Of a DNA stretch of 51,145 nucleotides, positions 30,431-36,571 are shown piece by piece. The stretch spans positions 1 to 51,145 of the forward strand of contig CABYHW010000007.1 of the NCBI GenBank assembly GCA_902518705.1, written 5' to 3'. Numbering within the stretch: the first letter of the stretch is position 1; every line of letters begins with the position of its first letter. Source of the DNA: an uncultured Alphaproteobacteria bacterium (GTDB lineage: Bacteria > Pseudomonadota > Alphaproteobacteria > HIMB59 > GCA-002718135). Under the pieces are notes generated by a model. The model was not told the DNA's origin. It saw only the letters and a program-made list of their open reading frames with translations, and made no database searches. The translations under genes were made by a program, and so were the position numbers.

Positions 30431-32980
30431 ATGTCTTATGAAGATGAAAATTTATTAGCCATACTTGGACCCACAAATACTGGAAAAACCTATGCAGCGT
30501 TTGAAAAATTACTTTCTTATTCGTCAGGAATTTTTGGTTTTCCATTAAGATTACTTGCTAGGGAAAATTACGACAAGGCAGTGACAAGAATTGGCCTTAA
30601 TAATGTAGCATTAATAACTGGTGAAGAAAAAATTCTTCCGAAAGAAGCAAAATATTTTTTTTGTACTGTTGAATCAATGCCTAATAATATCTCTGTAGAA
30701 TGTGTGATAATTGATGAAATTCAACTAGCTGCTGATTATGAAAGAGGCCATATTTTTACTGATAGAATTTTAAATTTAAGAGGTATTTACAAGACAATTT
30801 TCTTAGGCTCATTAAATATAGAAAAAATTATAAAAAAAATTTATCCTAATATAATCATAGAGAAAAAAAATAGATTTTCTCAACTTACATTTCTAAAAAA
30901 ACAAAATTTTTCTAAGCTTGAACCTAGGTCCGCAATAATTGCATTCAATATCAATAAAGTTTATGAAATTGCTGAAAATATTAGAACTCATAAAGGTGGC
31001 ACTGCTGTAGTTCTAGGATCACTTAGCCCAAGAACTAGAAATGCACAAGTTGAAGTTTATGAAAATAAAAATGTTGATTATCTTGTAGCAACTGATGCTA
31101 TTGGCATGGGATTAAATCTTAATATCAATCATGTAAGTTTCTCAGCATTAGAAAAATTTGATGGAAGATATAATCGTAACCTTGCACCAAATGAATTAGG
31201 TCAGATTGCAGGCAGAGCAGGCAGATATAAACAGAATGGTACCTTTAGCTATACTAAAGAGGCGGGAAATTTAGACCCATTAATTATACAACAAATAGAA
31301 ACACATAACTTTGATAATATTCAAAAAATTTACTGGCGAAATAGTAAATTAGATTTCAATTCAGTTGATACCCTATTATCTTCATTAAAAAAATACCCTA
31401 TTCACAATTACTTTATACATAAAAAAAATGCTTTAGATGAAATTAATTTGCGTAATTTAATTATTGATAGTGAAATAAAAAAAAATCTTTCCTCAAAAAA
31501 TAATTTAAAGTTATTATGGGATATCTGTCAAATCCCAGATTTTGAAAAACTCTTCAATGATAATTATTTATTACTTTTAAAAGAAGTATATCTTATCTTA
31601 GTACAAAATAATTATAATATTCCTGAAGAATGGATTAATAAAAAAGTAAGTAGACTTAATAATTTTGGTGGAGGTATCCCCGAGCTTACAATAAAAATTT
31701 CTCAAATTAGGACTTGGACATACATCTCAAATAATCACGAATGGTTTAAAAACTCAAATTATTGGAAAGAAAAAACCCTACAAATAGAGAATGAATTATC
31801 TGATCTTTTACATGATAGTCTAACAAAAAAATTTATAGACTACTCGTCAAAATTTTTTATAGGAAGAGAAAAGTTTCAAAATATTAAGGATATCCTTGTA
31901 AAAAATAAAAATGAAATATTTTTAGATAATTATAAATATGGAATTATTAAAGGTTTTGATCTTATTCTGGTAAAAAAAATATATTCACAATCTCTTTTTT
32001 CAATTAGTAATATAAAAAAAACAGTAAGAAAAGTGATTAATGATAAAATAGATAATTTCTTAAATGCACCATTAAACTCAATCAGTTTTGGTGATGTTGC
32101 CAAATCTAAAATTACAGAAGATACCTTAATATATTGGGGAGATGAACCTGTTGGTAAACTAGGTAAAAGTAAAAATATATATAGGCCTAATGTAGATGCT
32201 TTGAATTCTGAATATTTATCTTCAGAAAATAAATTATTGATTTCAGCAAAACTTCAAAAATGGTTAGAAGGTGAAATAAATGAAACACTCCATCCACTTA
32301 ATAAAAATTTAGATGAAGATATTAATTCAGAAATTAGAGCCATAGCCTTTAATTGTTTTGAAAATTTTGGAAACTACCCAACTGAAAAATTTAAAGATAC
32401 TCTAAAGACACTTTCACAAGAAAGTAAATCTCAACTTTCTAAATTAGGTATCAGAATTGGTGCAAAATTTTTTTTTATACCTAACTTATTGAAAAAAAAA
32501 CCTTTAGAGCTTTGCGCTATTTTATGGAAAACATTCCATCAAATTGAAAATAATAATTTTGTTCCATTACCACTAAATGGCAGAGTATCTTTTATTTCAA
32601 AAATTAAAATGCCTGATAACTATTGGCAATCAATTGGATATATTAATATTAAAAATTTTATATTTAGAATTGATGTATTTGAAAAAATTTTTTTTCTTGC
32701 AAGACAAAAATTAAAGAAAGGACCTTTTTTAGAATCATCTGATCTCATGAATCCAATTGGTTGTAATAGTGATCAACTAAAAGATATAATGTTTTACTGT
32801 GGATATGAATATATAATTCTATCTGATGATAAAAAACTATTTTTTATTGCCAATAAGAAAAAAGAATATAAAAAAAATATAAAAAATAAACCAAACATAA
32901 AAATAAATAAAAAAAATAACAATGATAAAATTAAAAGAGACCCTGATTCTCCATTTGCAGTTTTAGAAAAACTTCTTTAA
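30431..32980 (+). CDS. Suv3-like ATP-dependent helicase
   Basis: An 849-residue superfamily 2 helicase of the Suv3/DExH type found in alphaproteobacteria and mitochondria, probably acting on RNA. It has motif I GPTNTGKT near residue 13, DEIQLA as motif II near residue 97, TDAIGMGLNLNI as motif V and QIAGRAGRY as motif VI. A long C-terminal region ends in a Lys/Asn-rich linker and the conserved DPDSPFAVLEKLL. It starts 4 bp after acnA and precedes the TerB-like gene. In many alphaproteobacteria an S4-domain RNA-binding gene follows; here it does not. Confidence 0.92.
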   Translation: MSYEDENLLAILGPTNTGKTYAAFEKLLSYSSGIFGFPLRLLARENYDKAVTRIGLNNVALITGEEKILPKEAKYFFCTVESMPNNISVECVIIDEIQLAADYERGHIFTDRILNLRGIYKTIFLGSLNIEKIIKKIYPNIIIEKKNRFSQLTFLKKQNFSKLEPRSAIIAFNINKVYEIAENIRTHKGGTAVVLGSLSPRTRNAQVEVYENKNVDYLVATDAIGMGLNLNINHVSFSALEKFDGRYNRNLAPNELGQIAGRAGRYKQNGTFSYTKEAGNLDPLIIQQIETHNFDNIQKIYWRNSKLDFNSVDTLLSSLKKYPIHNYFIHKKNALDEINLRNLIIDSEIKKNLSSKNNLKLLWDICQIPDFEKLFNDNYLLLLKEVYLILVQNNYNIPEEWINKKVSRLNNFGGGIPELTIKISQIRTWTYISNNHEWFKNSNYWKEKTLQIENELSDLLHDSLTKKFIDYSSKFFIGREKFQNIKDILVKNKNEIFLDNYKYGIIKGFDLILVKKIYSQSLFSISNIKKTVRKVINDKIDNFLNAPLNSISFGDVAKSKITEDTLIYWGDEPVGKLGKSKNIYRPNVDALNSEYLSSENKLLISAKLQKWLEGEINETLHPLNKNLDEDINSEIRAIAFNCFENFGNYPTEKFKDTLKTLSQESKSQLSKLGIRIGAKFFFIPNLLKKKPLELCAILWKTFHQIENNNFVPLPLNGRVSFISKIKMPDNYWQSIGYINIKNFIFRIDVFEKIFFLARQKLKKGPFLESSDLMNPIGCNSDQLKDIMFYCGYEYIILSDDKKLFFIANKKKEYKKNIKNKPNIKINKKNNNDKIKRDPDSPFAVLEKLL

Positions 32981-33001: not shown

Positions 33002-33454
33002 TTGATAAATTTACTAAATAAAATATTTAATAATCAGAATTCTACAGAAGATAATGATAATAATAAAAACTTAGAACTACTCTGTGGATTAATGATCGAA
33101 GCAGCTTTTACAGACGGTCAAGTTGATAAAACTGAATTAAATAAGATTAAGTCAAGTTTGATAAGTGTTTTTGGAGAGGATCCAAAAGAAGTAGATTTGG
33201 TTCTTGAGAAAGCAGAAATAAATAAAAACAACTCTAAATCTCTTCATTATTATACATCTTATATTAATAAAAACTTTGATGGTAAAAATAAATTATTACT
33301 AATTGAAGCTTTGTGGGAAATAGTATTATCTGATGGAGCAATTCATGATTTTGAGTCAAATCTCATTAGAAGACTTAGTGGATTACTATATATTTCTGAT
33401 GTTAATTCTGGAAATGCAAGGAAAAGAGCTCTAAATAAAATTTTGAAAAAATAA
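33002..33454 (+). CDS. TerB-like domain protein
   Basis: A 150-residue helical protein with two Asp-rich metal-type motifs, [16 protein letters not shown] and [16 protein letters not shown], the paired DG-D/E pattern of TerB (tellurite-resistance-associated) domains. TerB proteins bind divalent metal at membranes; the function in this context is unknown. The start is TTG at 33002, since no ATG occurs in frame before the conserved region. It lies 21 bp after the helicase and 8 bp before fdxA. Confidence 0.8.
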
Positions 33455-33462
33455 TATATATA

Positions 33463-33795
33463 ATGACTTACGTTGTTGATGAAAAATGTATTAAATGTAA
33501 ACACATGGATTGTGTGGAAGTATGTCCTGTAGATTGCTTTTACGAAGGTGAAAATATGTTGGTAATTAATCCGGATGAATGCATAGATTGTGGGGTATGT
33601 GAGCCTGAATGTCCTGTAGAGGCAATATATTCAGATACTGAAGATGGTTCAGAAAAGTGGGCAGAAATTAATAGAAAGTATTCTGAAAAGTGGCCAAATA
33701 TAAATGAAAAAAAAGAACCTCCTAGTGATGCAAAAGAATGGGAAAATATAGAAAATAAATATAAAGATCACTTTAGCCCAAAGCCAGGAAGATAA
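33463..33795 (+). CDS. fdxA: Seven-iron ferredoxin FdxA
   Basis: A 110-residue [3Fe-4S][4Fe-4S] ferredoxin for electron transfer. Cysteines at 9, 12, 17, 21 and 25 and at 40, 43, 46 and 50 lie in [17 protein letters not shown] and [12 protein letters not shown], the standard seven-iron pattern, followed by the usual acidic/aromatic C-terminal tail. Its stop abuts the carD start directly; the helicase-fdxA-carD grouping is conserved in alphaproteobacteria. Confidence 0.96.
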
Positions 33796-34299
33796 ATGAA
33801 AAATAAAAAAAGAAAAGATTTTAATATTGGGGAAACAGTTGTTTATCCTAAACACGGCGTAGGTGAAATTATCAAAATAGAAAATATGGAAATTGCTAAT
33901 ATTAAAAATGAATTTTATGTTGTAAAAATGGAACAATCAAAATTAACTATAAGAGTTCCTTTAGAAAAAAAAAATGAGGTTGGGCTTAGAAAAATATCAT
34001 CGAAAAAAATTATTGAAGAAGTATTTGAAATATTAAAATTAAAGCCAAAAATTAGAAGAATTATGTGGAGTAGAAGGGCGCAAGAATACGAAGGAAAAAT
34101 TTTTTCTGGAGACCCAATCAAAATTGCAGAAGTTGTTAGAGATTTGTTTAGAAAAAGTAGTCAAGCAGACCAATCATATAGTGAAAGGCAAATGTTTCAA
34201 GTTGCAATTGAAAGACTAGCTCGGGAAGTTGCTGCTGTTGAAAAAACTGACTATTTTCAATCTACTGAAAAAATTGAACAAATACTTAATAAAAAATAA
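33796..34299 (+). CDS. carD: CarD family transcriptional regulator
   Basis: A 167-residue protein with the N-terminal RNA-polymerase-interacting Tudor-like domain (IGETVVYPKHGVGEIIKIE, then FYVVKMEQSKLTIRVPL) and a C-terminal helical DNA-binding domain containing LFRKSSQADQSYSERQMF. CarD binds the RNA polymerase beta subunit and stabilises open complexes, especially at rRNA promoters. The gene is coupled to fdxA, with no spacer, and to the phosphatase-like gene (2 bp). Confidence 0.95.
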   Translation: MKNKKRKDFNIGETVVYPKHGVGEIIKIENMEIANIKNEFYVVKMEQSKLTIRVPLEKKNEVGLRKISSKKIIEEVFEILKLKPKIRRIMWSRRAQEYEGKIFSGDPIKIAEVVRDLFRKSSQADQSYSERQMFQVAIERLAREVAAVEKTDYFQSTEKIEQILNKK

Positions 34300-34301
34300 T
34301 T

Positions 34302-35114
34302 TTGGAACACAAAAAAAATTTTATAGAACTTAGAAATGATACAAGAATTTGGGCAATAGGTTCGATACATTCTAATTTAAACTCATTCAATTCGTTAAAA
34401 AATTTTATCTTATCTAATTTTAAATACGGAGACAAAATTGTTTTTTTAGGTAACATAATTGGGTTAGGTTTAGAATCAAGGGAAACACTTTCAAGTGTCA
34501 TTGAATTTAGATTTAAGCTAATGTCTAAGTATTTATTAAATAAAGAAGATGTAATCTTTTTAAGAGGTGCTCAAGAAGAAATGTTAAGTAAAGTTCTTCA
34601 ATTACAAACTGCTCCAAATCCTCATGAAATTATTGAATGGATGTTTGATCATGGCGTTAGTGCAACTATAAAATCATATGGTTTTGAGATTGATGAAGTT
34701 ATAAATATTTCTAGTTCAAGTACAGTAAATATTTCAAAATGGACATCGAAATTAAATAAATCTATAGAAAGTAACCCAGGTCATAAGGAATATATATTAA
34801 ATTTAAAACATGCTGCATATTCTTCAACAAAAAAAGTACTTTTTGTAAATCGAGGAGTTGATATTTCTAGACCTCTATCTGCTCAAAGCGACTGTTTTTG
34901 GTGGGGATACCATAATTTTTCTAAAATTGAAAATCCATATAAATCATTTGTCAGAATTGTCAGAGGCTATCAGTCTAAAAATAATATTGGTATTGAGAAC
35001 TCAAAAAATAATATAATCTGTACCTTATTTAGACAACCACTCTCCGAAAAGAAGGTTTTAGCTGGTTTATTCGGTATTAATGGAGAGATACTAGATTTAT
35101 TTGAATCAAATTGA
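34302..35114 (+). CDS. Metallophosphoesterase-fold protein lacking catalytic residues
   Basis: A 270-residue protein that aligns with Ser/Thr-phosphatase or ApaH-type metallophosphoesterases but has lost every recognisable metal ligand. The first motif is GSIHS (residues 20-24) instead of GDIHG, the second GNIIGLG (50-56) instead of GDxxDRG, and the third RGAQE (88-92) instead of RGNHE. The later FVNRGVD replaces FVHAGxx, and VRGYQ replaces the GHT block. The fold-defining strands and spacing survive. A regulatory or binding role is inferred. The start is TTG, 2 bp after carD; rpoH follows 31 bp later. Confidence 0.7.
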   Translation: MEHKKNFIELRNDTRIWAIGSIHSNLNSFNSLKNFILSNFKYGDKIVFLGNIIGLGLESRETLSSVIEFRFKLMSKYLLNKEDVIFLRGAQEEMLSKVLQLQTAPNPHEIIEWMFDHGVSATIKSYGFEIDEVINISSSSTVNISKWTSKLNKSIESNPGHKEYILNLKHAAYSSTKKVLFVNRGVDISRPLSAQSDCFWWGYHNFSKIENPYKSFVRIVRGYQSKNNIGIENSKNNIICTLFRQPLSEKKVLAGLFGINGEILDLFESN

Positions 35115-35145: not shown

Positions 35146-36003
35146 ATGAATTATAAATTCTCTAGTAAACTAATAGAATTATCAAAAAAAGGCGATATTC
35201 TTGACAAAGAAACAGAATTTTCCTTAATTAATGATTGGAGAGAAACAAAAAATCCAAAATCTCTTCAAAAGATACTAAATGCTTACCTAAGACTTGCAGT
35301 TTCTTACGCAAGAAAATTCTCTAGTTATGGTCTTCCTATTGATGATCTAATTCATGAAGGAGTTCTAGGAATAATGCATGCCCTAGATAAATTTGAAACT
35401 TCAAAGGATTTTAGATTATCAACATATGCTTCTTGGTGGATTAGAGCCTCAATGCAAGACTATATTTTAAAAAATTGGTCTGTTGTAAGAACAGGTTCAA
35501 CTGCTTCACAGAAAGCTCTATTTTTTAATCTAAAAAAGATAAAGCAAAAAATTAATGATGTTTCAAATGATTATATGGGCCAAAAAGAAATTGATGAAGT
35601 TTCAAAAATTTTAAAAGTTAAGTCTTTAGAGGTTCAGAATATGGAATCTCGCCTTACAGGTGGTGATCTGCATTTAAATCAAAAAATTGATAGTGAAAAT
35701 GAAAATGATTTAATGGACTTAATTGTAGACGAAAGAGATTCTCCTGAAGAAGTTTTTCAAAATTTAAATGATAATAGAGTAAAAAATAATTATGTTTCTG
35801 AAGCAATTGAAACTTTAAATGAAAGAGAAAAAACAATTATTAAACTTAGAAAGTTTAGAGAAAAAAGTATAACACTTGATGAACTTGGACAAAAACTAAG
35901 AATAAGTAAAGAAAGAGTCAGACAAATTGAAACAAAAGCACTTCAAAAACTAAAAAAAGCTCTATTAGATATCTCTCAGCAAGACAAAGAATTTTTTATT
36001 TGA
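35146..36003 (+). CDS. rpoH: RNA polymerase sigma-32 factor (heat shock)
   Basis: A 285-residue group 3 sigma factor directing heat-shock transcription. Region 2 shows YGLPIDDLIHEGVLGIMHALDKF and RLSTYASWWIRASMQDYIL; the RpoH box is QKALFFNLKK. Region 4 shows LNEREKTIIKLR and LGQKLRISKERVRQIE. RpoH is normally unstable and controlled by DnaK and FtsH through the RpoH box region. The upstream 31 bp include an (AT)n run and no clear ribosome-binding site. Confidence 0.95.
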   Translation: MNYKFSSKLIELSKKGDILDKETEFSLINDWRETKNPKSLQKILNAYLRLAVSYARKFSSYGLPIDDLIHEGVLGIMHALDKFETSKDFRLSTYASWWIRASMQDYILKNWSVVRTGSTASQKALFFNLKKIKQKINDVSNDYMGQKEIDEVSKILKVKSLEVQNMESRLTGGDLHLNQKIDSENENDLMDLIVDERDSPEEVFQNLNDNRVKNNYVSEAIETLNEREKTIIKLRKFREKSITLDELGQKLRISKERVRQIETKALQKLKKALLDISQQDKEFFI

Positions 36004-36034: not shown

Positions 36035-36571
36035 ATGCAATATATCTACTCTATTATATTTTTATTAGTATTAATTTTCAGCAAGCAATCTATTTCTACA
36101 AATCTGGACGTTTTTGGAATAGGTATTTTTGATATAAAATTTGATGGATCTAAAAATAATTATGTAACTGATTTAAGATATGAGAAACGATTTGATAAAT
36201 CTCTTATAAATATCGGACCTAAAGAAGAAAATTTTTTCTTTCTAAAGCCTTTTCTAGGTTTTGAAGTAACAAGCAAATCTGCATCATATTTTATAACTGG
36301 AATATATTTAGAAGATAATTTAGGTCAATTATTTACCGGAAAAAATAATAAATTAATTTTTACACCAAGCTTTGGTGCAGGTTATTATGATAATGGATCA
36401 GGAAAAGATTTGGGTAATAAGTTAGAGTTTAGAACCAGTTTTGAATTAAGTTATGAACTTAAAAACAAGAATAGAATAGGCTTTTCAATAAGTCACATTT
36501 CTAATGCAAATTTAGGTAAAAAAAATCCTGGTGCAGAAGTAATAAATATATCTTATCAAATACCCTATTAA
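36035..36571 (+). CDS. PagL-type lipid A deacylase (acyloxyacyl hydrolase)
   Basis: A 178-residue outer-membrane beta-barrel protein with a signal peptide (about residues 1-21) and alternating hydrophobic strands ending in aromatic-rich ISYQIPY. The C-terminal SHISNANLGKKNPGAEV supplies the catalytic triad by position: His154, Ser156 and Glu168, the same spacing as His126/Ser128/Glu140 in PagL. It would remove the 3-O acyl chain of lipid A. It follows rpoH by 31 bp, possibly in the same transcript, and is convergent with dusA. Confidence 0.82.
   Translation: MQYIYSIIFLLVLIFSKQSISTNLDVFGIGIFDIKFDGSKNNYVTDLRYEKRFDKSLINIGPKEENFFFLKPFLGFEVTSKSASYFITGIYLEDNLGQLFTGKNNKLIFTPSFGAGYYDNGSGKDLGNKLEFRTSFELSYELKNKNRIGFSISHISNANLGKKNPGAEVINISYQIPY

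Follow-up and report, generated by a model that had tools for sequence, protein, structure and literature searches.

The open reading frame (ORF) at positions 34302-35114 of the window, the whole 51,145-nt stretch of DNA that was analysed, belongs to an unnamed and ancient pseudoenzyme family built on the known PPP phosphatase fold, and about one third of alphaproteobacteria carry this gene beside carD. The best explanation overall, to which sequence comparisons give an even chance, is that the protein is a non-catalytic PPP scaffold that would bind CarD, or CarD together with RNA polymerase, and modulate the stabilisation of open complexes. A first-pass annotation had described an intact frame packed between two transcription regulators, and both points were borne out: the 270-aa frame is uninterrupted, with carD on one side and a gene for an RpoH-type sigma factor on the other. 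The genes concerned are the following.

30431-32980, forward strand: Suv3-type helicase of the conserved cluster (PF22527, E 2e-27; synteny)
33002-33454, forward strand: TerB-like protein of the conserved cluster (PF05099, E 3e-24; synteny)
33463-33795, forward strand: fdxA-type 4Fe-4S ferredoxin of the conserved cluster (synteny)
33796-34299, forward strand: carD, CdnL-type RNA-polymerase-binding regulator, conserved upstream neighbour (PF21095, E 1e-22; PF02559, E 3e-14; synteny)
34302-34304, forward strand: TTG start codon, 2 nt past the carD stop
34302-35114, forward strand: pseudo-PPP-phosphatase, intact ORF with TTG start, predicted PPP fold, ligands lost family-wide
35146-36003, forward strand: second, RpoH2-type sigma factor (Sigma70_r2 and r4; below the TIGR02392 cut-off)

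We looked at the fold of the window protein with an AlphaFold model, for which the input was an alignment of this protein with 71 relatives from named genome records. The model was obtained with a mean pLDDT of 92.7 and a pTM of 0.91, and both Foldseek and VIA-align placed it among the PPP phosphatases. The best structural match was the phosphatase domain of PnkP (4j6o, Z 21.2 over 214 residues); RLPH2 (5vjv, Z 21.0), an ApaH-like protein (2qjc, Z 20.2), lambda phosphatase (18.8), and PP5 and PP1 (about 17-18) were also retrieved. This indicates that the product has a PPP-type (PP1/ApaH-like) fold, as modelled, within the calcineurin-like phosphoesterase superfamily, and not an unrelated one. 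Homology to PPP enzymes was also found at the sequence level, since the family profile aligned motif by motif with an active PPP from a genome of the same genus (L034) over 216 columns (hhalign probability 99%, E 2e-18). The window protein alone, however, had no match in Pfam at E<=10 and gave chance matches only in a sequence search of the PDB, and a Metallophos search of the window's own genome recovered five other genes and missed this ORF. The PP1/ApaH-like fold proposed in the first-pass annotation is therefore upheld by the model and the family profile, but the kinship to PPPs is not visible from the single sequence. No model covering the family was found in Pfam or NCBIfam, and a literature search returned no prior description of it.

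The motifs GSIHS, LGNIIGLG, RGAQE, VNRG and VRGY of the window protein aligned with GDIHG, LGDYIDRG, LGNHE, VHAG and VHGHT of the active L034 PPP. Their positions and conservation are given below.

34362-34370, forward strand: former GDxH motif, S21-I22-H23; Asp replaced by Ser, His retained (alignment with active PPPs)
34449-34469, forward strand: former GDxxDRG motif, G50-N51-I52-I53-G54-L55-G56; N51 in 93% and G54 in 100% of 160 members, D and D in active PPPs
34563-34583, forward strand: former GNHE motif, R88-G-A-Q-E-E-M94; Q91 in about 97% of members (H in 14/14 active PPPs), E92 and E93 in 99-100%
34845-34856, forward strand: former HAG motif, V182-N183-R184-G185; N, H, S, A or P in the family, H in every active PPP
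34962-34970, forward strand: former HGHT motif, R221-G222-Y223; R221 in 99%, position 223 mostly Y/F and never H in 160 members

The motif counts and the clade test rest on 160 distinct alphaproteobacterial members; five sequences initially grouped with the family proved to be active PPPs on inspection and were removed. The Asp of GDxHG was absent from 160/160 members, S, A, C or P being found at position 21, and the Asp of DRG was replaced by Gly (G54) in all 160. The GHT His was likewise missing from every member, while the first Asp of GDxxDRG (D51) was retained in six. At the Asn and His of GNHE the window protein has A90 and Q91, so that the GDxHG Asp, both Asp residues of GDxxDRG, the GNHE Asn and His and the GHT His of an active PPP are all lacking from it. 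In contrast, the 14 active PPP comparators keep D, D, H and H at the positions lost in the family. The first-pass annotation had quoted these motifs exactly and considered all of them altered; however, not every ligand is gone, as the window protein keeps the GDxHG His (H23), like about 95% of the members, and slightly under half of them have the HAG His. Since only six members have the first GDxxDRG Asp and most have the GDxHG His, the usual di-metal centre cannot be formed from this residual set. The losses are common to the family, with no intact-ligand orthologue among the 160 members, and on these alignments the catalytic death of the protein is close to certain. Eight residues conserved in the family differ from those of active PPPs (W17, N51, G54, R70, Q91, K97, W200 and R221) and lie mostly in or beside the former catalytic loops, five of these replacements (N51, G54, Q91, W200 and R221) being nearly invariant. 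Such family-specific conservation is the pattern expected of a new binding site in an old pocket.

In the class search, 98 of the 289 genomes had a match with E below 1e-20; a gap followed, up to 6e-8, where other PPPs start. By contig scanning, at least 568 matches were confirmed, including Magnetospirillum, Azospirillum, Niveispirillum, Telmatospirillum, Oceanibaculum and Kiloniellaceae; plasmids yielded no copy, and nothing hinted at an origin in phages or defence systems. The family and the active PPPs split in a tree rooted at its midpoint, where the branch of the active PPPs had a support of 1.0 and that of the family 0.58. This split is consistent with a single loss, and the di-metal centre was probably lost from the PPP fold before the divergence of the sampled lineages. 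Within the window's order, the median dN/dS of the pseudophosphatase was 0.23; carD (0.09) and the sigma factor (0.05) gave lower medians, and terB (0.31) a higher one. The value of 0.23 is probably an overestimate, because dS near saturation (median pS 0.63) biases it upward. Judged from these substitution rates, the gene is under purifying rather than relaxed selection. A decaying pseudogene was rejected on this median, dS being near saturation, and on the finding of no internal stops inside the homologue matches checked. Altogether, the PPP fold, the shared ligand losses and the purifying selection agree with the earlier proposal of a maintained non-enzymatic protein.

Some members deserve separate mention. 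The most degenerate ones (L231, L234, L236 and L232), in which Q91 or other family residues are lost, come partly from genomes where the gene lies away from carD or where CarD was not found. For L123, L149, L151, L167 and L187, several record names (Asaia, Stygiobacter, Rhizobium, Anaerolineae) do not fit the sequence, and the L151 match holds two in-frame stops.

The gene order suv3-terB-fdxA-carD-pseudophosphatase was common to other genera of the family and to much of the class. In the class genomes where both genes could be located, carD was directly upstream on the same strand in 58 of 71, 1.4 kb away in two more and not near the gene in 11. Among loci from named records, carD was found at 2 kb or less upstream in 79/80. 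The linkage is thus operon-like, and genetic linkage to carD, one feature looked for in an accessory factor of CarD-RNA polymerase, is present. Moreover, 96 of the 98 class genomes carrying the pseudophosphatase had a CarD match. The ORF began with TTG at 0-11 nt past the carD stop in 29/29 same-genus loci. This points to translational coupling and lends weight to the assigned start. Where copies did not adjoin carD, their neighbours were unrelated (ffh, purH and dapB, for example) and no alternative partner emerged. No fusion of the pseudophosphatase to carD or RpoH was found. When CarD and the pseudophosphatase were compared in a mirror-tree analysis, the partial Spearman coefficient was 0.20, and CarD was not convincingly separated from the ferredoxin control. 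A gene for a PagL-like lipid A 3-O-deacylase (36035-36571 in the window) follows the cluster, and this position is held across the family.

As for the other neighbour, the sigma factor is an RpoH2-type copy, since it scores under the RpoH cut-off and a canonical RpoH is found elsewhere in same-genus genomes. It is the only RpoH found in the window's assembly, which is 71% complete; better-assembled relatives also have the canonical one. The RpoH2 gene has another location in g3, g4 and g6, three genera of the same family, while the pseudophosphatase is still beside carD. It also stays beside carD in g5 and g7, in whose assemblies (91% and 84% complete) RpoH2 was not found. Neither the pseudophosphatase nor the RpoH2-type sigma occurs in family f2 of this order, in which one genome (1.41 Mb) is complete, but carD is kept there. 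Thus, among relatives carD is the conserved neighbour and RpoH the less constant one, and from gene order the partner gene is carD, not rpoH.

CarD is present in virtually all alphaproteobacteria (PMC5324124) and has been proposed to drive many sigma-70 promoters (PMC8407463). In Caulobacter, CarD is cleared in a (p)ppGpp-dependent manner, and a factor with an effect on CarD turnover was suggested, with none identified (PMC11034885). Of the 254 class genomes sampled that have CarD, about 158 were without the pseudophosphatase; therefore, CarD does not need it in general, and the protein would be a lineage-specific modifier rather than a core factor.

We also looked at the ends of CarD. The Ala-Ala end of this protein is a ClpXP degradation signal in Caulobacter. 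CarD of the window's order ends with NKK or KR, and most other alphaproteobacterial CarD with Ala-Ala. A trade-off in which CarD without a C-terminal Ala-Ala needs the pseudophosphatase was rejected, since Ala-Ala was common both with the gene (96/105) and without it (27/36, a group that includes a few loci from genomes possessing the pseudophosphatase). In six loci of family f2 (L073-L078), which have no pseudophosphatase beside carD, CarD is 231-245 residues long, and in L073 and L076, the two whose sequence was inspected in full, it has a lysine/alanine-rich N-terminal tail of about 65 residues resembling histone H1.

The conservation of this dead-phosphatase family at the side of carD suggests that the protein is probably a non-enzymatic partner of CarD. 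The loops of the former active site would have been rebuilt as a new conserved site (W17, N51, G54, R70, R88-G-x-Q91-E-E-M, K97, W200 and R221), and the protein would bind CarD, or CarD on RNA polymerase, without catalysis. Once bound, it may raise or limit the stabilisation of open promoter complexes by CarD, and a small ligand in the old pocket might govern this effect. In the window's genus, ribosomes probably reinitiate at the weak TTG just past the carD stop, so that the protein would be co-produced with CarD, at a level that may equal that of CarD or be lower. As to the tuning of CarD activity and turnover (PMC11034885), a conserved dead protein from the same operon would be a direct candidate. 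The presence of the gene in the cultivable genera Magnetospirillum, Azospirillum and Niveispirillum puts it within reach of experiments.

A bolder version, in which the class-wide pseudophosphatase is a dedicated CarD regulator that senses nucleotides in its dead site and sets the support given by CarD to housekeeping promoters, is rather doubtful; if true, it would add a further, new layer to the control of transcription in alphaproteobacteria. A ligand sensor whose rebuilt pocket binds Ap4A or (p)ppGpp uncut, and reports stress to the transcription machinery, is in our opinion unlikely. The appeal of nucleotide sensing comes from the ability of some of the nearest enzymes to cut Ap4A and from the (p)ppGpp-dependent clearance of CarD in Caulobacter (PMC11034885). 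The closest profile relatives include ApaH/Ap4A hydrolases (NF001204 in 18/28 members; 2qjc), and the conserved arginines R88 and R221 are located in the former phosphate-binding loops; however, several of the phosphate-binding residues of PPPs are lost.

The carD linkage could also reflect the inertia of an old suv3-terB-fdxA-carD operon. That the gene is a mere passenger of this operon, with a function unrelated to transcription such as structural partner in another housekeeping process, would fit with the mixed content and age of the cluster and with the copies found outside it, but the gene tracks carD specifically and its start codon appears coupled in the window's genus; we regard this reading as distinctly improbable.

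Still harder to sustain, and very unlikely to our mind, is a role devoted to the adjacent RpoH2-type sigma, for instance as an anti-sigma or co-sigma factor. The gene is directly upstream of RpoH2 in the window's genus, an RpoH-type gene is nearby in 21/80 named loci, and L230 and L269 keep the pseudophosphatase near an RpoH-type gene with carD elsewhere. Contrarily, the behaviour of the five other genera described above speaks against this role, and adjacency of carD and rpoH was also seen in genomes lacking the pseudophosphatase (11 of 34 loci). An enzyme with another metal arrangement or chemistry in the same pocket is scarcely credible: H23 (about 95%), the nearly universal E92, and the nearly invariant N51 and Q91 indicate that the pocket is under selection, but in essentially the entire family the carboxylates that bind metal, as well as the Asn-His pair of GNHE and the His of GHT, are lost or have given way to non-ligating residues.

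We return to the proposed non-catalytic partner of CarD and compare it with known systems. With bacterial PPPs (PrpA/PrpB, lambda phosphatase, RLPH2 and the PnkP phosphatase domain), the family shares the fold over 198-225 aligned residues (Z 19-21) and the order of the motif blocks, including W..GG..TL.SYG. Unlike them, it has other residues in place of all the catalytic Asp, of the Asn-His of GNHE and of the His of GHT, and it forms a separate clade; it would add a bacterial PPP pseudophosphatase family without a Pfam or NCBIfam model. The symmetrical Ap4A hydrolases of the ApaH type have the same fold (Z 17.3), and NF001204 matches a C-terminal stretch of the members cited above, although the score is far under the family cut-off (24.5 vs 176 bits in one member) and the ligands are lost. 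As regards accessory factors of CarD/CdnL, a literature search found no protein cofactor of the pseudophosphatase type, and the gene described here is part of the carD operon across much of the class. A metallophosphoesterase fold that serves as a scaffold without catalysis is also seen in inactive calcineurin-like phosphoesterases of eukaryotes, such as VPS29 and the B subunits of DNA polymerases, which are components of larger machines. They belong to other branches of the superfamily and have, to our knowledge, no link to CarD or bacterial RNA polymerase.
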